This document shows, one piece after another, positions 3,712-32,252 of a stretch of 32,335 bases of DNA. The notes under the pieces are model-generated. The model was given only the letters and a program-made list of their open reading frames with translations, did not search any database and was not told the origin of the DNA. A program made the position numbers and the translations under genes. Source of the DNA: Lachnospiraceae bacterium (GTDB lineage Bacteria > Bacillota > Clostridia > Lachnospirales > Lachnospiraceae); contig JAAVAA010000040.1 of NCBI GenBank assembly GCA_014804285.1, forward strand, positions 15,097-47,431, given 5' to 3'. Positions within the stretch are counted from its first letter, which is position 1. Each line of letters begins with the position of its first letter.

Positions 3712-5385
3712 GTGAGTGATATTTTCAATAATGAATTATTTGAAGCGTTTGCGTCGGCATCTGATAATGTATACATCTATGTATGCGATATGAAGACGGA
3801 TATTTCGCGCTGGTCCAGGGCTGCCGTGGATTATTTCGGGCTGGAAGGGGAGTATCTGGAAAACGCGGGGGATGTTTGGGGACAACATATACATCCGGAT
3901 GACTTGAAGGTTTATATGGAGGATATCACAGGTGTATTTTCCGGCAAAAAGAAATATCATGACTGTCAATACAGGGCGCGGAATGCATTGGGCGCATATG
4001 TGTGGGTGGAATGTAAAGGCAGTGTGATCAAGGATGCGGAAGGAAATCCAATTATTTTTGCGGGACTTATGACAAGAATAGATGGGCAGAGCAAATACGA
4101 TTCTTTGACCGGACTTTTGACAACGCATGCGACGCACTATTTTGACTTTGCTTCACAGACCGGAATCGCTCTGCTGATCGGTATAGATGGGTTTCGAAAA
4201 ATTATAAGCAACTACGGATATAACATTGGGGATGAAATTTTAGTAAAATTTTCTAGGGAGATAAACGGTTTATGTAAATCCGGATGGAAAGTGCTTCGAT
4301 TCAGCGGAGATGAATTCCTTGTAATTGCTTTTGAATCTGATCTGCAGGAAGTGATGGATTTTTATGAGAGAATATGCCGGGAAACGGATATTGTGAAACT
4401 GGAAGACGGGCGGAAAGTAGGAATTTCTGTATCGGCTGGCGGAGTTTTCTTTCCCCAGGATGCGGATAACAGGGAAGTTCTAATTAATAAACTGGAGCAC
4501 TCGCTGGAGTATGCCAAGAATAACCAGAGAGGCAGCATGGTATTTTTTTCGGACGAGATTGCCGGAAAACATGAGAGAGGACTGGTTCTGCGGGAGGATT
4601 TAAAGCAGTGCATCAAAAATGATTTTAAAGGGTTTGAATTGTTCTTTCAGCCGTTTATCAATCCGGATACCGGAACGATTGCGGGCTGTGAATGTCTTCT
4701 GCGCTGGAAGGGAGAAAGAATTAAAGATTCTTATCCCATGGAGTTTATTAAGGTTTTAGAGGATTACGGTGATATTAATGAAGTAGGTTCCTGGGTTATG
4801 GAACAGGCAATCAGTCAGCAGGCTGCATGGCGTGATAGATACGGAGAGCTGCAGGTAAGCTTTAATGTATCTTATCAGCAGTTTATAGACGATGCCTTTG
4901 AGGAAAGAGCGATTTCCTGTGTGGAAAAGTACGGGGTAAATCCGAAATATATCATTATAGAGCTTACGGAAAGCTGCCATGTAGAAGCCCCCAAAGAGCT
5001 TGCGGCCGTGTTTGGCAGGCTGCGTGAACAGGGCTTTAAAATAGCGTTGGACGATTTTGGGACGGCGTATGCTTCTATGGAGATGTTAAAATGGCTGCCT
5101 GTGGACTATATTAAAGTGGAGCATTCCTTTATCAGGGAGCTTGCGCAGCCGGGGCACGACATGGATTATGTGATTGTTGACAGTCTGTTGGAAATGTGCA
5201 GGCGCTTAGGATATCATTCTATTATAGAAGGTGTGGAGAACAGTAAAGTAGCGGATATCGTGGGAGGACTGAATGCTACGCTGCTGCAGGGATACCATTA
5301 TTCACGTCCTGTCTGTCGGGAAGAATTTGAAAAGCTGCTGGAGGAGGATAGAAAGAAGGGTGTGCGCATCAAAGCAGTTCCTTAG
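3712..5385 (+). CDS. PAS-GGDEF-EAL domain protein (putative c-di-GMP phosphodiesterase, degenerate GGDEF)
   Basis: 557 aa. PAS-like N-terminus ('VWVECKGSVIKDAEGNPIIFAGLMTRID'), 'LRFSGDEFLV' in place of GGDEF, EAL domain with ECLLRW, NVS, IIELTES, DDFGTAYAS, IKVEHSFI and IIEGVE. Confidence 0.9.
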   Translation: MSDIFNNELFEAFASASDNVYIYVCDMKTDISRWSRAAVDYFGLEGEYLENAGDVWGQHIHPDDLKVYMEDITGVFSGKKKYHDCQYRARNALGAYVWVECKGSVIKDAEGNPIIFAGLMTRIDGQSKYDSLTGLLTTHATHYFDFASQTGIALLIGIDGFRKIISNYGYNIGDEILVKFSREINGLCKSGWKVLRFSGDEFLVIAFESDLQEVMDFYERICRETDIVKLEDGRKVGISVSAGGVFFPQDADNREVLINKLEHSLEYAKNNQRGSMVFFSDEIAGKHERGLVLREDLKQCIKNDFKGFELFFQPFINPDTGTIAGCECLLRWKGERIKDSYPMEFIKVLEDYGDINEVGSWVMEQAISQQAAWRDRYGELQVSFNVSYQQFIDDAFEERAISCVEKYGVNPKYIIIELTESCHVEAPKELAAVFGRLREQGFKIALDDFGTAYASMEMLKWLPVDYIKVEHSFIRELAQPGHDMDYVIVDSLLEMCRRLGYHSIIEGVENSKVADIVGGLNATLLQGYHYSRPVCREEFEKLLEEDRKKGVRIKAVP

Positions 5386-6661
5386 TTCTCCGGACAAGGT
5401 ACAAAGGAAGATTTGTAATATCCCCATCCTTTCGATAACCGCGTTTTGAGAAACGCAGCGCGTGTTCGGGATGGTGGTCGGCAATATATTTTTTGAAGGA
5501 CGGGGCGGATTTGTCTTCCCCGCCCTTTACTTCAATTGGGATAATCTCAGATCCATATTGCAGGACGAAATCTATTTCATGATTCTTATCAGAGAAATAG
5601 CGGGGGGCAATTTCGAACTGCCCTCGAAGCTGCTGCAGACAATAATTTTCAGTCAGAGACCCTTTGAATTGGTAGTCAGATTTCAAAAGGATAGCGCTGT
5701 TGTCAATACCGGCCATGTGCTTGAGGAGTCCGGTATCAAATACAAAAAGTTTAAACTGATCTAATTTGTCAAAGGCTGAAAGGGGATGTTCCATTTTGGA
5801 GACATTGTAAACACGGTTAAGCATACCGGCTGAGACAAGCCATTCAATAGCTTCTTCAAAATCACGTGCCCTGCCGCCTTCGCGGACAGCACCGTACATG
5901 AACTTCTCGTTGGGTTTGGCGAGCTGCGTGACAATACTGCGGAAGACCATGAGAATACGTCCGCTGTTTACTTTACCGTTGTGTTTTGAAAAGTCATTTT
6001 CATAGACTTCAATAAGCTCATGCTGTATTTGGGATATTTTCGCCGGATCTTTGTACTCAACCCATGAAGCAACACATTCCGGCATACCACCGATGATAAG
6101 ATAGTAGTTGTATGCTTCAAGAAGGCGATTGTGAAAAATATCTTCAATCAGCTGCTCTTTCTGTATATTTGAATAGTAGTCATAAAGGGGCGGATCAACC
6201 GCAGCTAGAAACTCATCAAAGGTCAGTGGAAAGATGTCGAGCAGATTTACCATGCCAACCGGATAAGATTTCGGCTTTGCAAGGAGTGTTCCAAGCAGGC
6301 TGCCTGCTGCAATGACGTGGTAGTCATTGGCTTTCTCCTTGAAATATTTAAGCGTATTCAGTGCCTCTGGGCATTCTTGAATTTCATCAAAAATAATAAG
6401 TGTTTCGCCTGGAAGGATTTTAACTCCGGCAATCATAGAAAGAAGATCGATAATCCGGTGAGGATTTTTGTTTGTCTCAAAGATGGATTTCAATTCATCC
6501 TCTTCGTCAAAGTTGAAGTAGACAAAGCTGTCATAGCAGTTCTGGCCAAATTCTTTCATAAGCCATGTTTTGCCGACCTGACGCGCGCCTTTTAACACCA
6601 TAGGCTTTCTTTCTTTGCTGGATTTCCAATTAATCAAGTCTTGAATAGCATTGCGGTTCAA
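5369..6661 (-). CDS. AAA ATPase with C-terminal DUF4143 domain
   Basis: 430 aa. 'RKPMVLKGARQVGKTWLMKEFG', 'LIIFDEIQECPEALNTLKYF', 'RYFSDKNHEIDFVLQYGSEIIPIEVKGGED' C-terminal nuclease-like motif. Likely TTG start after GGGAGGGG. Confidence 0.92.
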   Translation of the reverse strand: MNRNAIQDLINWKSSKERKPMVLKGARQVGKTWLMKEFGQNCYDSFVYFNFDEEDELKSIFETNKNPHRIIDLLSMIAGVKILPGETLIIFDEIQECPEALNTLKYFKEKANDYHVIAAGSLLGTLLAKPKSYPVGMVNLLDIFPLTFDEFLAAVDPPLYDYYSNIQKEQLIEDIFHNRLLEAYNYYLIIGGMPECVASWVEYKDPAKISQIQHELIEVYENDFSKHNGKVNSGRILMVFRSIVTQLAKPNEKFMYGAVREGGRARDFEEAIEWLVSAGMLNRVYNVSKMEHPLSAFDKLDQFKLFVFDTGLLKHMAGIDNSAILLKSDYQFKGSLTENYCLQQLRGQFEIAPRYFSDKNHEIDFVLQYGSEIIPIEVKGGEDKSAPSFKKYIADHHPEHALRFSKRGYRKDGDITNLPLYLVRRTKELL

Positions 6662-7109: not shown

Positions 7110-8171
7110 TTATTTTAATAAAGTATATTTAAGCATTTGAAATGCAGCCTGTTTCTTGGCATATTTCTTAGAAGATGATTTTGCACAAAAGCATGTTGTG
7201 ATATCTATTATGCGACAAGTGCATTTCCAGATAGGGTTTCCATTGGTATCATATTCTTGTTCAAATTCATAAAAGGGGATTGAAAAATATCCTCTTCTTG
7301 CTAGTGTTTCCAGTTGACCGATGGCATCGTTTATATTTGGATTTGGAATTTCATCACGAATAGATAATAGCATGTTGTTTCGTTCTAATTCTTTATAAGC
7401 CAATGCGCATACTGCTTTTCGGGCTTCATTTTTTGAGGTGCCAAAACTTCTGAAAATTGTGTTTAGCTCGCCTAGTTTTAACAGGCATGTATGTTTTGAT
7501 TCGGGATTGCCATCGTAAGAGGACGAAATGCCGTCAAAAGGGACATACCATACTGCTTGTGAAGCCTTTTCAAAATGATACCATGGAACTATTCCATACT
7601 TTTTTAAGGCCCACTCCTGTATAAACTCAACATAATTGTTATCCATATCTTCTTCAAAATAACTGTCGGGATCAAGCATTATTTGAACAACATCCTGAAG
7701 AATTTCCATGTCCCAATTAGAATCCAATGCCACTGCACCGATAATTGCCTCAAACAGATCTTCTTTAACAGAAAGTGAGTTATTTACATTGCTTTGGATG
7801 TCACCGTTTCCCATAATGAGATAGTCGGCAAGATCCAAGACATTGATTCTGTCTGCAAGTGTTTTCTTTTGAACTAATTTTTTCTTGAGTTCTGTTAATT
7901 CAGCTTCATTTTTACTACATACAAACTCATCAAATTCTTCATTCGGATTAAAGTCCTCGTAATCACTGATAAAATAACCATGTTTTTCTGTCAGTAGTTT
8001 TACCACGATAAGATCCAGCACCTTGTCACCAATAAACTCTAATATCTCGTTGTTCTCTCCGCCGTTTTCTTTTGAATAAGAGCGTCTAATGAATGCTTGT
8101 TGTAACAAATCAGTATTTTGAAAATTGTAGCCGATTTGATCTTGGATAAATGTTAAATCCTTTTTGTCCAT
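7110..8171 (-). CDS. Accessory ribonuclease III family protein with two putative tandem dsRNA-binding domains
   Basis: 353 aa from ATG at 8171 (RBS AGGAGGT). RNase III signature 'ENNEILEFIGDKVLDLIVV'; second acidic motif 'EDLFEAIIGAVALDSN'; dsRBD-like 'SFGTSKNEARKAVCALAYKEL' and 'SSSKKYAKKQAAFQMLKYTLL'. Confidence 0.85.
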   Translation of the reverse strand: MDKKDLTFIQDQIGYNFQNTDLLQQAFIRRSYSKENGGENNEILEFIGDKVLDLIVVKLLTEKHGYFISDYEDFNPNEEFDEFVCSKNEAELTELKKKLVQKKTLADRINVLDLADYLIMGNGDIQSNVNNSLSVKEDLFEAIIGAVALDSNWDMEILQDVVQIMLDPDSYFEEDMDNNYVEFIQEWALKKYGIVPWYHFEKASQAVWYVPFDGISSSYDGNPESKHTCLLKLGELNTIFRSFGTSKNEARKAVCALAYKELERNNMLLSIRDEIPNPNINDAIGQLETLARRGYFSIPFYEFEQEYDTNGNPIWKCTCRIIDITTCFCAKSSSKKYAKKQAAFQMLKYTLLK

Positions 8172-8217
8172 AAAAATACCTCCTAGTATTTGTTTTGTAC
8201 TAAAAGGCATAATAATA

Positions 8218-8261
8218 GCCTGACAAAAATACTTCTGCGTGGCAGAGTAATATTGTCAGGC
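8218..8261. promoter_or_regulatory. Long hairpin upstream of the RNase III gene (candidate 5'-UTR processing element)
   Basis: GCCTGACAAAAATACTTCTGC-gtg-GCAGAGTAATATTGTCAGGC: about 18 pairs, two A.A mismatches, one bulge, no U-tract. Ends 46 nt upstream of the start codon at 8171. Confidence 0.6.
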
Positions 8262-8485
8262 ATGATAGATTAAATTAGATTCTTTGTTTTCGGGTGTTTA
8301 CTGATATTCACTTACATAAATAGGAATAAACACATATAAACAATGTTTCGAATTTAAAATATTATGCCATGCAATTAACATATCAGAATATAAGTATTTA
8401 GTCAATGACCTTTTACTATACTGTTTCTGTTGTAATTAAAGACTGAATAGGATAAAATGAGAAAAAGCGAAAGGATATTTGGAAT

Positions 8486-8788
8486 ATGTCGGATACTGTG
8501 TATACTATTAGCCAGCTTAAAGAAAGGCTGATACCAATTTTTATAAATAATAGCATAAGGAGAGCGGTTCTCTTTGGTTCTTATGGAAAAGGCTTGGCAA
8601 CAAAAGAAAGTGATATTGATTTGCTGGTAGACAGTGGTCTTAAAGGGCTTGGTTTTGTTGGACTGATAGAAGATATTCGAGCAGCCGTAGATAAAGATGT
8701 GGATATTTTCGACATTACTCATGTAGAAAAAGGATCTAAAATTGATTTGGAAATTCAAAGAACGGGAGTATTAATGTATGAAAAATGA
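8486..8788 (+). CDS. MNT-type minimal nucleotidyltransferase (MntA-like antitoxin)
   Basis: 100 aa. 'RAVLFGSYGKGLATKESDIDLLVD' = GSx10DxD nucleotidyltransferase motif. Overlaps the next gene. Confidence 0.9.
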   Translation: MSDTVYTISQLKERLIPIFINNSIRRAVLFGSYGKGLATKESDIDLLVDSGLKGLGFVGLIEDIRAAVDKDVDIFDITHVEKGSKIDLEIQRTGVLMYEK

Positions 8789-9101
8789 TGTGATTATCGG
8801 AAAAATGCTGGGATATATTGAAAAAGTATTAAAATATACGAAGGGTATGGAATACGATACTTTTATAAAGCAGGAAGTAATAATGGAAGCCTGTATATTC
8901 AATTTGAGCCAATTAGGTGAATTGGCTGGTAAGGTTGACAATGAATATCGGGTGATTCACAAAGAAATTCCATGGAGTCAGATATATGGTTTGAGAAATC
9001 GAATTGTACATGATTATGAAGGTGTAAATTTTATGCTTGTATGGGAAATTATTTACAATGATTTACAAGAACTTAGAGAAATGTTAATAAGCATAAAATA
9101 A
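8778..9101 (+). CDS. HEPN-domain protein (HepT/DUF86-like toxin)
   Basis: 107 aa. 'IYGLRNRIVHDYEGVN' contains the RX4H HEPN motif. Overlaps the MNT gene by 11 bp. Confidence 0.9.
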   Translation: MKNDVIIGKMLGYIEKVLKYTKGMEYDTFIKQEVIMEACIFNLSQLGELAGKVDNEYRVIHKEIPWSQIYGLRNRIVHDYEGVNFMLVWEIIYNDLQELREMLISIK

Positions 9102-9379: not shown

Positions 9380-10234
9380 TCAATTAGTAAATACATCCAG
9401 AATTGCTTTTTTTGAGAATGGATGCAGTGTGTCGTCAGATTTTTCAGTATTTTTTTTGAGTAATTTTTTTAACTTGTCCAGATTGAGTTTCTTATTTGTA
9501 TGATTATTTATTCCTCCAATTAGAATTTTTATTTCTGCATTTCTCATGCCGGAAATGACATATGCCGCTTCAAAAGTTATTCTTTTTTCATCAAGTAGGT
9601 TTGCAATAGATTGAAGAAGATTATCAGGGAGTTTTATGATACGTATGTACTTACTCAGGGTAGATGTAGAAATACCAAGACTGTGGGCTGCTTCATCTCT
9701 GTTAGTGGGGCGTCTGGAACTTCTGGTAAAATTAGACACAAGTTGGGCGCAAGTATCTTCCTTAACTTCTGAATTGGACACAGGTTGGACACAAGTTTTT
9801 TCGCTTTTCGCAGCGGCTTTCTCCTCTAGATCCGTACGTTTCCCTTGGCGGGAGTTCATTTCCATTATTTTTTTATAGTATTTTACGGTCTCAAACCTTT
9901 GCGCATAGCTACACGCTGAAAAAGGCTGTTGCCTAAGGTTACTGTTAGAATATATTTTTGTTGCATCTTCATCAGACAACCCATTTCTTATGTCTGCATG
10001 AATGACCGTACATCCTAACATTTCTAGTGCTTTAATGCGGTTATGACCACAAAGGACTTCATATTTTCCATTATCTACAGGGCGAACAATAACTGAATCC
10101 ATCAGACCGGCTCTTTTGATACAGTCTGCCAACTGCTGCATCCAATCCTCTTCATGCATATATTTCTGGTCACCTTTAAAAGGAATCAATTTCTCAAACT
10201 CAATATCTTTGGATTCTCTGCACATATCCATTTC
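9380..10234 (-). CDS. ParB/Spo0J-like partition protein
   Basis: ParB N-terminal features 'LIPFKGDQKYM', 'VIVRPVDNGKYEVLCGHNRIKALEMLG', 'YSNSNLRQQPFSACSYAQRF'; HTH 'TNRDEAAHSLGISTSTLSKYIRIIKL'. ORF track begins with GTG at 10273; the ATGGATATG after AAAGGGGGAA is the more likely start. Confidence 0.9.
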   Translation of the reverse strand, partial: EMDMCRESKDIEFEKLIPFKGDQKYMHEEDWMQQLADCIKRAGLMDSVIVRPVDNGKYEVLCGHNRIKALEMLGCTVIHADIRNGLSDEDATKIYSNSNLRQQPFSACSYAQRFETVKYYKKIMEMNSRQGKRTDLEEKAAAKSEKTCVQPVSNSEVKEDTCAQLVSNFTRSSRRPTNRDEAAHSLGISTSTLSKYIRIIKLPDNLLQSIANLLDEKRITFEAAYVISGMRNAEIKILIGGINNHTNKKLNLDKLKKLLKKNTEKSDDTLHPFSKKAILDVFTN

Positions 10235-10263
10235 CCCCTTTTTATGGTTATATATTATCAACC

Positions 10264-10280
10264 TTTTGGACACAAGTCAA
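10264..10280 (-). promoter_or_regulatory. Promoter of the parB-like gene overlapping an ACTTGTGTCCAA motif
   Basis: Minus strand TTGACT-(17)-TAATAT. The motif ACTTGTGTCCAA (10266-10277) overlaps the -35 and spacer and recurs inside the gene. Confidence 0.5.
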
Positions 10281-24889: not shown

Positions 24890-25024
24890 AATCAGTTCAA
24901 AAACGACCATTAATGGAACTGATTTTATAGGTTGGAGAATCTGCTTAAAATAGATGGTTTTGTGGGTGGTTTCGTTCCAGAATCCGTTCCAAAATCAAAG
25001 TCTTATATCTTATACGTTTTGGAA
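24890..25024. promoter_or_regulatory. Cluster of inverted/direct repeats upstream of the serine recombinase (candidate res-like site)
   Basis: AATCAGTTC(24890-24898)/GAACTGATT(24916-24924); CGTTCCA at 24973 and 24985; TTCCAAAA(24988-24995)/TTTTGGAA(25017-25024). Confidence 0.4.
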
Positions 25025-25052
25025 ACATCATTTATATAGGAAGGAATGGGTT

Positions 25053-25625
25053 ATGAAAAATTATATATTCGGATATGCAAGGGTATCTACAGAAGCCCAG
25101 AATCTTGACAGACAGATTGATGCCCTTAAAAAATATGGTGTTGATCATATTTACAATGAAAAAATGACTGGTACAAAAAAGAACCGTCCAGAACTGGATA
25201 AGATGCTGGATCGGATGACAGAGGGGGATACTGTTGTAATAGAATCATTGTCACGTCTTGGGAGAAGTACCAAAGATTTGATTGAACTGACGGAATTATT
25301 CCAGAGCAAGGGTGTCCATCTCGTGTCTCTGAAAGAAGCCATTGATACGAGTACTTCTACAGGGAAGCTTTTGTTTACCCTAATGAGTGCAATAGCCCAG
25401 TTTGAGCGTGATGTGATAGCCGATAGAACTCGTGAGGGATTGCGCTCAGCCAGAGCTAGGGGCAGAATGGGAGGGAGACCAAAAACAGATCCTAATATTA
25501 TTAAGAAAGCTGTTAAGTTGTATCGGACAGGACAGTATTCAATTAAGGAGATTGAGGAACTGACAGGAGTTAAGAAATCTACTCTTTATAGAAATCTAAA
25601 GATGGGTACAAATGAAGAGCGGTGA
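25053..25625 (+). CDS. Small serine recombinase (resolvase/invertase family)
   Basis: 'IFGYARVSTEAQNLDRQIDAL', 'DTVVIESLSRLGRSTKDLIEL', 'LFTLMSAIAQFERDVIADRTREGL', C-terminal HTH 'YSIKEIEELTGVKKSTLYRNL'. RBS AGGAAGG. Confidence 0.95.
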   Translation: MKNYIFGYARVSTEAQNLDRQIDALKKYGVDHIYNEKMTGTKKNRPELDKMLDRMTEGDTVVIESLSRLGRSTKDLIELTELFQSKGVHLVSLKEAIDTSTSTGKLLFTLMSAIAQFERDVIADRTREGLRSARARGRMGGRPKTDPNIIKKAVKLYRTGQYSIKEIEELTGVKKSTLYRNLKMGTNEER

Positions 25626-29367: not shown

Positions 29368-30150
29368 TTATCTGGATAACTCCATTTCCCGATTAGGGCT
29401 TTGCACTAATTGCTTTTGGCGGATACGGTCTTCATTACGTGACTTAATTAATCGCTTTTTATTGCCAGCAGCTGTCTTTTCTCCCCGTTGTTCCTTTTGA
29501 TAATCAATTCGACTCAGATGAATGGTAGGTTCTCGGTTGTATATACCTTGTATTTCAAGACTTTCGTGGCTCACGTGTATATCTAATCCATTTCGTTCAT
29601 ATGCCCGGTTCTGTACATTCGCCCATTCAGCGCGCCAAATATCAAGGTACTCCTTTTTGTCCCATTTTCTATCCTTTTTTTTACTAAAACCATTTTGATC
29701 AATAGTTCTGGTTGGCACAATGATGTGGACATGTGGATTGTTCCGCTTGGGATCAATTTCGTTTCTACCTTCATGAATGGCTGTGATCGCACATAAACCT
29801 TGCGAAATGAAATTACTTTGCACATATTCACTGACTATTCGCTTTTGTTCATGAAGTGATAATTCATTTGGTAGTGATCCCTTAAATTCACGTGCAGTGC
29901 GAGCATCATATCGAGACTCCGCTTTATCAATTTCGTCACAAAGGAATTGTAAATCATAAAATTTAAGAGGGGCTTTATCTGGAAGAAAAATTTCAAATAG
30001 TAAGAGATCTTTTCTTCTGTTATAATAAGTTTTGTTATTGTACCCATCATGTAGTTTCCTTCCGCTGATATAGTTGACAGATTTTACTACCGAACGGTTT
30101 TTCCTACGACTGATAATACCAACTTCTAGATGGTAATTTGCCATATTCAA
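29368..30150 (-). CDS. MobA/MobL-type relaxase (MOBQ-like)
   Basis: 'ANYHLEVGIISRRKNRSVVKSVNYISGRKL', 'NNPHVHIIVPTRTIDQNGFSKKKDRKWDKKEYLDIWRAEWANVQNRAYERNG' = MobA/MobL HxH motif region. Confidence 0.9.
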   Translation of the reverse strand: MNMANYHLEVGIISRRKNRSVVKSVNYISGRKLHDGYNNKTYYNRRKDLLLFEIFLPDKAPLKFYDLQFLCDEIDKAESRYDARTAREFKGSLPNELSLHEQKRIVSEYVQSNFISQGLCAITAIHEGRNEIDPKRNNPHVHIIVPTRTIDQNGFSKKKDRKWDKKEYLDIWRAEWANVQNRAYERNGLDIHVSHESLEIQGIYNREPTIHLSRIDYQKEQRGEKTAAGNKKRLIKSRNEDRIRQKQLVQSPNREMELSR

Positions 30151-30179
30151 ATTCCACTCCTTTCAATGCTCTTGTAATA

Positions 30180-32096
30180 TCATTTGGTTGTCTTTTCTTC
30201 CTGTCCACTTACACATGTCTCATTAGATTGTGCTCTATTTTTAGCTTTTTGATTTAATTGTTCCATCAATTCTTTATCTTCTGATAGAACTAATAAAAAC
30301 GATTCAAGGAAATTAAGTGAAATGGTAGTTTCATCTGTTCCATCTGATTCCAAACATAAAATTTCTGGGAAATAGTTACTGACAAGATTACCGATAAGGT
30401 AACATTGTCGCTTTCTTTTTTTCTCTTGAGCTTCTCGATTATTTCTATCTGTTATCCGTTTCTGTCGTTCAAGCGTTTCAATTAGGTCTTTCACTGCTCT
30501 TATCCTTTCTTCAATAGTTGGTAATTCTTTAATTTCTTTTGGCATTATTTCTGGTGTCTTTTGAACAATGCATGTGCAGACTGGTTCAACTGTATTCGCT
30601 ATCTGTAATCTATCCGGATGCTCCATTACGGTTGCATATATAATAGAAGAATTAGGTTTATATGGCTGATCAAATAGGTTGCAGCTTGCTTGGATTTTGT
30701 TAATGCGGCAAAATCCAAAGGGTGATAGTAACAAAACATCGTTCAAAGACGAAAACTCATGAGGAGGAATTCTATATTCCAGAGTTTCACTTATTTGCCG
30801 ATTATAACGTACGTCGTTCAATTCATCGTCCCAAGATTCACCAAAGCTTTCTTGTATACCCTTTTGAGTTCCAATCAGAGAACTAAAATATTGCTGAGTC
30901 TCAGCATCATTTGCGTGTAAAATAGCTTGGAATTGACAATTGTCTAGAATAATTCTTCTATCATTTTCGCCATAAATTTTGTCAAGTTGCGCGAGACTTT
31001 GAATAACAATGCAGATATTAACATTCCGGCTTCGCAGTGTAGATATTGCGTCTGTCATTAATGGGAGTTTACCGAATCTTGCAAATTCGTCCATCAGTAG
31101 CAATGTTGGTATATTATTTACGCCTTCAAAGCTGTATTTATCTGGACGACGTTCCAAATGCCGAATCAGTTGTGTGTACATTAAATTAATTGCACCGCTC
31201 CACTGTTCAATCTGTTCTTCTGGAATTTGTATAAAAATATTATATTTATCCAGATCTTGCCAAGTAAAATAGTCAGTCTCATTTTGAGTTACTCGAAATG
31301 CATTATTGATATATGGGTCGGCAGCGAATAGCATTAGCTTGTTACGTATGCCCCTGTCAAAATTTGCTAGTGTCTCAGATTTCATTTCCAACATTTCGCC
31401 AAGATACATTTTTGAGATATCTTCATTGTTTTGTTTAATTTTTTTTATCAAATCGGTTGTGCTTGTAGAAACAATGGCAATCAGCGTATCACTGAAATTC
31501 AAACCAAGTTTATAATAATAATGAATAGCTGCTGCTAATATTCCTTGCTCGCTTTCGGACCAAAAAGGCTGATTATCATTTGGAATGTCTGGTATATTTG
31601 CCCTAACAATCTCCCATATTCTGTTAGTTAAATTCCCATCTTCATCTTGGCGTAAACAATAAAATGGGTCATAAGAGGTGGAATATTTAAAAGGATTAAA
31701 AATTATATATGGGCGTTTAGCAATACCTCTAGCATATAATTTTGCATAATAATCACATAATTCGCCTTTGATATCGGTAGCGCAAATTGCACCAGACCAA
31801 GTAGCTAAGGTTGGCTTAATAATACCGGTACTTTTTCCGCTGCCATTGCCTCCGGCAATAAGAATATTTCCTTCTGTACCTTGTGAAAAGCCAACATATT
31901 GTGTTGGATCGCTATTGCTGTTGAGTCCGAAACAAAAACCACGGTCATGGCTTCTGCTAAGGGATAATGGGAGAGGGATACAATTATTATTTTGCGCAGC
32001 TTTTAATTCTTGCTTTGCAACTTGGTATTCAGAGTAATCATATTTGCCAGCTCGATATTTGCTATCACCAATCCAATAGTTATATTTCTTTTTCAT
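30180..32096 (-). CDS. VirD4/TraG-type conjugative coupling protein
   Basis: 'NILIAGGNGSGKSTGIIKPTL' Walker A, 'PTLLLMDEFARFGKLPLMTDAISTLRSRNVNICIVIQSLAQL'. ATG at 32096 preceded by AAAGGAGAG; track ORF extends to 32189. Confidence 0.93.
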   Translation of the reverse strand: MKKKYNYWIGDSKYRAGKYDYSEYQVAKQELKAAQNNNCIPLPLSLSRSHDRGFCFGLNSNSDPTQYVGFSQGTEGNILIAGGNGSGKSTGIIKPTLATWSGAICATDIKGELCDYYAKLYARGIAKRPYIIFNPFKYSTSYDPFYCLRQDEDGNLTNRIWEIVRANIPDIPNDNQPFWSESEQGILAAAIHYYYKLGLNFSDTLIAIVSTSTTDLIKKIKQNNEDISKMYLGEMLEMKSETLANFDRGIRNKLMLFAADPYINNAFRVTQNETDYFTWQDLDKYNIFIQIPEEQIEQWSGAINLMYTQLIRHLERRPDKYSFEGVNNIPTLLLMDEFARFGKLPLMTDAISTLRSRNVNICIVIQSLAQLDKIYGENDRRIILDNCQFQAILHANDAETQQYFSSLIGTQKGIQESFGESWDDELNDVRYNRQISETLEYRIPPHEFSSLNDVLLLSPFGFCRINKIQASCNLFDQPYKPNSSIIYATVMEHPDRLQIANTVEPVCTCIVQKTPEIMPKEIKELPTIEERIRAVKDLIETLERQKRITDRNNREAQEKKRKRQCYLIGNLVSNYFPEILCLESDGTDETTISLNFLESFLLVLSEDKELMEQLNQKAKNRAQSNETCVSGQEEKTTK

Positions 32097-32252
32097 GTCA
32101 GTTTGCTCTCCTTTCAATTTTTGAAAATATAATGTATTATAAGCGCAAACAGTTTTTTTAGCGATTGGGAAGAATTTACGATTTTGCATACTGTGAAAAA
32201 ATAGTTTGAAATAGAGCGGAAGTTTGACAGTTAAATAATATAAAAATACCCT

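Follow-up and report, generated by a model that had tools for sequence, protein, structure and literature searches.

What is the role of the inverted repeat that lies just ahead of an RNase III gene in this DNA? A preliminary description of the window (the whole stretch of 32,335 nucleotides analyzed here) read the repeat as an RNA hairpin at which the encoded enzyme may process and repress its own message. The model for this reading is rnc of Escherichia coli, which is subject to feedback through cleavage of its leader by its own enzyme, leading to message decay (PMC5371410, PMC8708148). According to a title cited in PMC5371410/PMC8708148, this autoregulation does not depend on rnc translation.

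An Accessory RNase III Gene Preceded by a Stable Hairpin

The gene lies on the minus strand (7110–8171) and comprises 353 codons from an ATG at 8171, preceded by the Shine–Dalgarno (SD) sequence GGAGG at 8183–8179. Pfam families PF14622, PF00636, and PF00035 all score above their cut-offs, which identifies a nuclease domain of the RNase III type and, at the C terminus, a dsrm domain. A model generated by AlphaFold2 (mean pLDDT 89) places two alpha-beta-beta-beta-alpha units after the nuclease domain, at about residues 180–264 (dsRBD1) and 280–352 (dsRBD2). Pfam detects only the second of these, and a profile–profile comparison matches the two units with 96.8% probability, versus 0.1% for the nuclease domain as negative control. 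The best Foldseek match is RNase III from E. coli. Acidic residues E42, E45, D49, D138, and E141 do not vary across 13 homologues, and we take them to be the counterparts of the catalytic residues in E. coli. The 353-amino-acid protein thus has the RNase III domain with its acidic residues and the C-terminal dsRBD that characterize the family, plus a second dsRBD. Its score against the housekeeping equivalog TIGR02191 is 122.5 bits, below the cut-off of 166.25, and a separate housekeeping rnc is present in the same genome (G000:C67), which confirms the earlier view that the gene is accessory.

The inverted repeat spans 8218–8261, with the ATG of the gene 46 nt downstream. RNAfold predicts 17 base pairs, arranged as nine outer pairs, a 3×3 internal loop, and 4 + 4 pairs around a one-base bulge, capped by a 3-nt loop. 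The region from 8165 to 8265 folds with −30.5 kcal/mol (z = −5.0), and none of 200 shuffled sequences folds equally well. The hairpin is present as first described, except that its letters had been quoted from the plus strand, whereas gene and RNA are on the minus strand. In the sense orientation, this arm, which we call P3, reads GCCUGACAAUAUUACUCUGC-cac-GCAGAAGUAUUUUUGUCAGGC. The possibility that it is a genomic repeat or MITE was rejected, as the hairpin occurs as a single copy in the genome.

A Conserved Leader RNA Includes the Hairpin as One Arm

The hairpin is not an isolated element. P3 belongs to a larger structured leader (approximately 8372–8176, minus strand) with a conserved folded RNA of approximately 170 nt. 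The whole 211-nt sense leader has a predicted energy of −59.7 kcal/mol (z = −7.45) and folds as a three-way junction composed of a closing helix (P1), a rod (P2), and P3. The transcript is predicted to begin at the 5′ strand of P1 (GGCAUAAUA, 8360–8368), and folding and alignment place the 3′ strand of this helix (UAUUAUGCC) at 8206–8214. P2 is an 88-nt rod (8270–8357) consisting of two 42-nt arms joined by GUAA, with internal loops of conserved size. The tetraloop at 8312–8315 is of the GNRA type, with the consensus GNAA, and is closed by near-invariant U·G, A–U, and U·G pairs (UUAU-GNAA-GUGA; alignment pairs 64–73 and 66–71).

Support for this architecture comes from 17 leaders that were aligned with MAFFT without structural information, the consensus structure being derived by RNAalifold from the same alignment. 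Among the 43 consensus pairs, 95.3% of cells hold standard pairs, compared to 41 to 50% for slid partners, a percentage that is partly given by construction. This does not apply to double-sided changes, which occur in 23 of the 43 pairs (11.6 ± 1.9 in shuffles). The covariation score for the same leaders and pairs is 0.428 vs 0.242. All five helices are supported, with 98.0, 94.1, 91.1, 94.5, and 98.3% of cells paired in helices 1 (P1) to 5 (P3), respectively. Moreover, each of the 17 leaders yields the same overall three-way-junction shape when folded alone. Compensatory changes in homologues, which the preliminary description had proposed to look for, are seen in silico in the hairpin itself, where five of the seven pairs of helix 5 carry double changes.

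The arms differ in how strictly their dimensions are kept. Those of P2 measure 42/42 nt in 12 of the 17 leaders and 43/42 nt in four, with L047 (36 and 43 nt) as the sole outlier. Its loop is GCAA, GAAA, or GUAA, conforming to GNAA in 17 of 17, and the U·G, A–U, and U·G pairs below it are found in 16, 16, and 17 leaders, respectively. P3, in contrast, ranges from 34 to 54 nt and shows the weakest constraint of the arms. It is thus P2, rather than the hairpin originally reported, that forms the constant element. In the two nearest homologues (L034 and L035, 82 to 85% identity), the leader of approximately 200 nt is nearly identical and has the same promoter, and more distant homologues (43 to 58%) have the same fold with different letters. 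Judged from sequence, the leader is an RNA family with the architecture of a switch, and it is larger than the hairpin.

A Predicted Promoter Precedes the Leader

A promoter scan places a sigma-A-type promoter at 8377–8405 on the minus strand, with TTGACT (8405–8400), a 17-nt spacer, and TATGTT (8382–8377) preceded by TG; the promoter is kept in L034 and L035. Promoter sequences that match the consensus in 9 or more of 12 letters and end 0 to 20 nt before P1 are found in 21 of 23 leaders, the exceptions being L038 and L006. The corresponding background is 4.2% in the same loci and 9.7% in shuffled upstream sequence. Because a promoter is predicted just before P1 in so many leaders, the hairpin is very probably transcribed. 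The predicted promoter is upstream of the entire leader rather than between 8171 and 8218, where a start would have left the hairpin out of the transcript. The gene is thus directly preceded by a structured 5′ UTR inside the predicted transcript, as is typical of an rncO-type arrangement.

Two Predicted Helices Compete for the Shine–Dalgarno Sequence

In the window, AUGCCUUUUAGUA (8210–8198) can pair with UACUAGGAGGUAU (8188–8176), forming a helix, P4, in which the SD sequence is covered. Some nucleotides of this P4 5′ strand also belong to the 3′ half of P1 (8214–8206), which is why P1 and P4 can never both be complete. In the members that we display, the 3′ strand of P1 is the 5′ strand of P4.

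P4 was assessed by folding leader fragments that lack the 5′ strand of P1. In 20 of 23 leaders, the SD sequence is then paired with a probability of 0.83 or more. When the strand upstream of the SD sequence is shuffled, equal pairing is reached in none of 300 cases for the window and in at most 13 of 300 for 15 of the 17 core leaders. The result of this test is weaker for L066 (44 of 300), L067 (36 of 300), and several leaders from viral contigs, and the P4 statistics are weak for L048, L049, L052, L054, L066, and L067. In the viral-contig leaders, P1 and P4 can be recognized by eye, for example as AAGAUAAAC/GUUUAUCUU together with CUUCCU/AGGAGG.

The energy difference between folds forced into either state (P1 as ON, P4 as OFF) lies between −3.6 and +6.4 kcal/mol, for totals of about 50 to 65 kcal/mol. 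For the window alone, the P4 fold is predicted to be slightly better than the P1 fold (−3.6 kcal/mol). The near-equal energies indicate a balanced competition, in which the default state is not decidable from energies. P1 could form before the SD sequence is transcribed, which would favor the ON state first. The computed folds thus show P1 and P4 in competition for the SD sequence. The features expected of a switch are seen here, as two mutually exclusive helices are present of which one masks the SD sequence, with P1 covarying and P4 predicted in 20 of 23 leaders.

At 8210, inside P1/P4, there is an in-frame ATG that lacks a preceding SD sequence and could mislead gene callers into placing the start 13 codons early.

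The Leader Accompanies a Rare Accessory Gene

This accessory gene of gut bacteria is rare. Of 397 genomes of the family, 10 have it, including three more distant or partial cases; for the order, the count is 12 of 392 genomes. Every homologous gene for which upstream sequence is available has a leader, including one in another family. A covariance model finds one leader in the genome of origin and, among 299 genomes of the family, matches only in the seven that carry this gene, once each, reverse-strand echoes aside. The reverse-strand matches (8256–8414 on the plus strand of the window, and others) were rejected as echoes of the paired strands. No credible match was obtained at 27 RNase III loci of relatives (L007–L033), which mostly hold the housekeeping gene. 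The model recovers at the right position a leader that had not contributed to it (L181 in G778, from another family of the class), with 136 bits and E = 3e-27. Leaders from viral contigs (L048–L056) score weakly (E values from 0.001 to 0.025), yet they are located exactly before the gene.

A divergent clade comprising L036 (Ruminococcus albus plasmid pRUMAL01), L044, and L045 encodes a longer RNase III with two dsRBDs. The leaders of these three sequences keep P1 and P4 with different letters and have a different interior, which is much longer in L036. In L045, for example, P1 is ACAUGGA(U)GGC/GCCUCCAUGU vs CCUCC-AUGUUU/AAACAU-AGGAGG for P4. The interiors of this clade (2206–2571 in L036, and those of L044 and L045) have letters resembling CCUGGU...GGGCAGAGAGG.

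Scanning viral contigs with a single protein sequence gave no loci, and scanning with alignments gave 10; the proteins of the divergent clade identified none in these contigs. Plasmid and phage records contain only distant RNase III proteins, the best being that on the R. albus plasmid. A search of viral contigs for the DNA pattern AACATTGTTT-N-TATGNAAGTG returned 88 stretches, and the 80 listed ones, which are without leader context, were set aside. They seem to be repeated occurrences of a single conserved sequence that has nothing to do with the leader, mixed with scattered chance matches.

Neighboring genes are not common to the loci, except for serine recombinases beside the gene in four viral contigs. 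In L047–L050, genes for large serine recombinases are located upstream of the RNase III gene, which suggests that this gene is cargo located at the border of a mobile element. No PADLOC model matches the RNase III protein, so that PADLOC does not assign it to a defence system, and in PHROGs it matches a family of unknown function. Overall, the accessory RNase III gene has the appearance of cargo that mobile elements carry on its own.

Several other genes of the window were noted. Divergently oriented to the RNase III gene, and about 80 nt past its promoter, lies a HepT/MntA-like pair (8486–9101, plus strand), with Pfam matches to HepT-like and Polbeta and scores below the equivalog cut-offs of NCBIfam. 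Downstream of the RNase III gene, an AAA_14/DUF4143 ATPase (5369–6661, minus strand) matches the PADLOC candidate defence model PDC-S01 with E = 3e-168. ParB-like, resolvase-type recombinase, relaxase-like, and VirD4-like proteins are encoded at 9380–10273, 24954–25625, and 29368–32189. These last genes, of which ParB was the one checked with Pfam, suggest an integrative or plasmid-like mobile element.

A Candidate Autoregulatory Switch and Its Alternatives

We infer from these data a translational switch, including its recognition and cleavage by the cognate enzyme, the assignment of ON and OFF states, the direction of switching, the sensor, and the feedback. Transcription would start at the 5′ strand of P1. 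As long as P1 is formed and closes the P2/P3 junction, its 3′ strand could not fully pair with the SD sequence, and the gene would be translatable. If P1 is lost, this strand would pair with the SD sequence to form P4, and translation would be shut. The encoded RNase III would bind the P2 rod, perhaps at its GNAA tip via the two dsRBDs, and would cut P2 and/or P3, such that the 5′ strand of P1 is separated, P4 forms, and synthesis stops. In such a feedback loop, the activity of RNase III would be weighed against how much other double-stranded RNA is available.

We assign a probability of roughly 0.5 to the proposal that P3 is an arm of a conserved cis-regulatory leader by which the encoded RNase III switches off its own translation via P1 and P4. 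The strongest argument, albeit an indirect one, is that the leader is found only with the RNase III gene, which favors autoregulation over a ligand-operated switch. In addition, the retention of P1 and P4 in divergent homologues with a different interior is expected if the interior coevolves with the cognate enzyme. On the other hand, the sequence conservation at the tip of P2 could equally mean that a ligand or another protein is bound, and the products of RNase III cleavage might stay annealed through P1, in which case no switching would occur. The preliminary interpretation is partly supported in that the family context fits autoregulation. However, the hairpin it singled out is not among the constant parts, which are P2 and P1/P4, and the sequestration of the SD sequence was missed.

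We also speculate on how the enzyme might operate the switch, in a reading that we hold to be less likely than not. By breaking its own leader it would remove the 5′ half of P1, and the 42 + GNAA + 42 rod would serve as a measuring substrate, with the two-dsRBD enzyme reading the loop and counting a fixed distance, the whole constituting a mobile unit.

Another possibility is that P2/P3 responds to a different factor, be it a small molecule, the housekeeping RNase III, or a protein of host or phage origin, which sets P1 vs P4, with the encoded RNase III as mere output. A closing helix and an SD sequestor that exclude each other are typical of translational riboswitches, and this leader likewise has an aptamer-like domain whose closing helix competes with an SD sequestor. 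The invariant tip, the conserved internal-loop letters, and the near-equal energies of the two states are also compatible with this view. However, in the searched genomes the leader is exclusively associated with this gene family and never with a metabolic or other gene. Its conserved core is a long double-stranded rod, which is a natural target of the encoded enzyme, and leaders of the divergent enzyme clade have another interior. Unlike riboswitches, the leader is tied to one protein family, has no Rfam match, and suggests no ligand. We therefore regard control by such an external signal as unlikely.

It is rather improbable that RNase III simply cuts P2 and/or P3 to cause degradation of the message, with P4 as a fixed SD-masking hairpin that ensures a low basal level. 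Although this mechanism is known for E. coli rnc (PMC8708148, PMC5371410), it leaves unexplained why the 5′ strand of P1 is complementary to the SD-masking strand, and why compensatory changes occur in the outer pairs of helix 1 and in divergent homologues.

We give little credence to the idea that cleavage by RNase III releases a trans-acting RNA from the leader, either P2 or P3, making gene and RNA a two-part mobile module. The constant 88-nt size of P2 would fit this idea, as would the fact that RNA and gene always occur together as a solitary unit with no common neighbor but recombinases, but the coupling of P1/P4 to the SD sequence of the gene points to control in cis.

Transcription attenuation with P3 as an intrinsic terminator can practically be dismissed: despite the terminator-like UUUUUGUUU that follows P3 in a viral-contig group (L048, L050, L052, L056) and UAUUUUUAUG past P3 in several other leaders, the window has only UAUUAUUAU there (the missing U-tract had been correctly noted before), a terminator scan for a G+C-rich hairpin with a U tract reports just the inner 5-pair stem and not the full P3, and P1, P2, and P3 are mutually compatible, so that no antiterminator is seen.

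Relation to Known Regulatory RNAs

By its organization, the leader belongs among RNase III feedback leaders and SD-sequestering switches. The nearest precedent is rncO of E. coli, which shares the structured 5′ UTR before an RNase III gene and negative feedback by the encoded enzyme, the latter being a proposal here. This likeness is one of organization. Competition between a closing helix and an SD-masking helix, the accessory nature of the gene, the three-way junction, and the fixed-length rod set the present leader apart.

RNase III enzymes of two further bacteria also cut their own mRNAs, as we propose here. Their sites are located differently, in the coding region in Staphylococcus aureus (PMC3386247), and both within the rnc cistron and upstream of it in Streptomyces coelicolor (PMC10126417). 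For the adhE and lambda cIII mRNAs, RNase III cleavage alters ribosome access by opening the ribosome-binding site (PMC5371410), whereas in our proposal it would close the site. The yeast enzyme Rnt1p chooses its substrates by a conserved AGNN tetraloop that caps a stem (PMC8708148). A comparable choice is only proposed for the enzyme examined herein, and its loop differs from AGNN, being GNAA in 17 of 17 leaders with conserved U·G pairs.

In the window, no Rfam 15 family scores above its gathering cut-off, with only sub-threshold chance matches to the leader. Searches of the open-access literature turned up no description of an RNase III riboswitch or of such a Lachnospiraceae leader motif. 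The leader thus adds a structured RNA family that is not in Rfam, and RNase III feedback gains a concrete switch that is testable with a single enzyme and a 200-nt RNA. Should the fixed rod and the conserved loop indeed guide the enzyme, it would be a bacterial RNase III that reads a loop, comparable in principle to Rnt1p of yeast. These findings also raise the question of why an additional RNase III, equipped with two dsRBDs and apparently under tight control, is carried by mobile elements.
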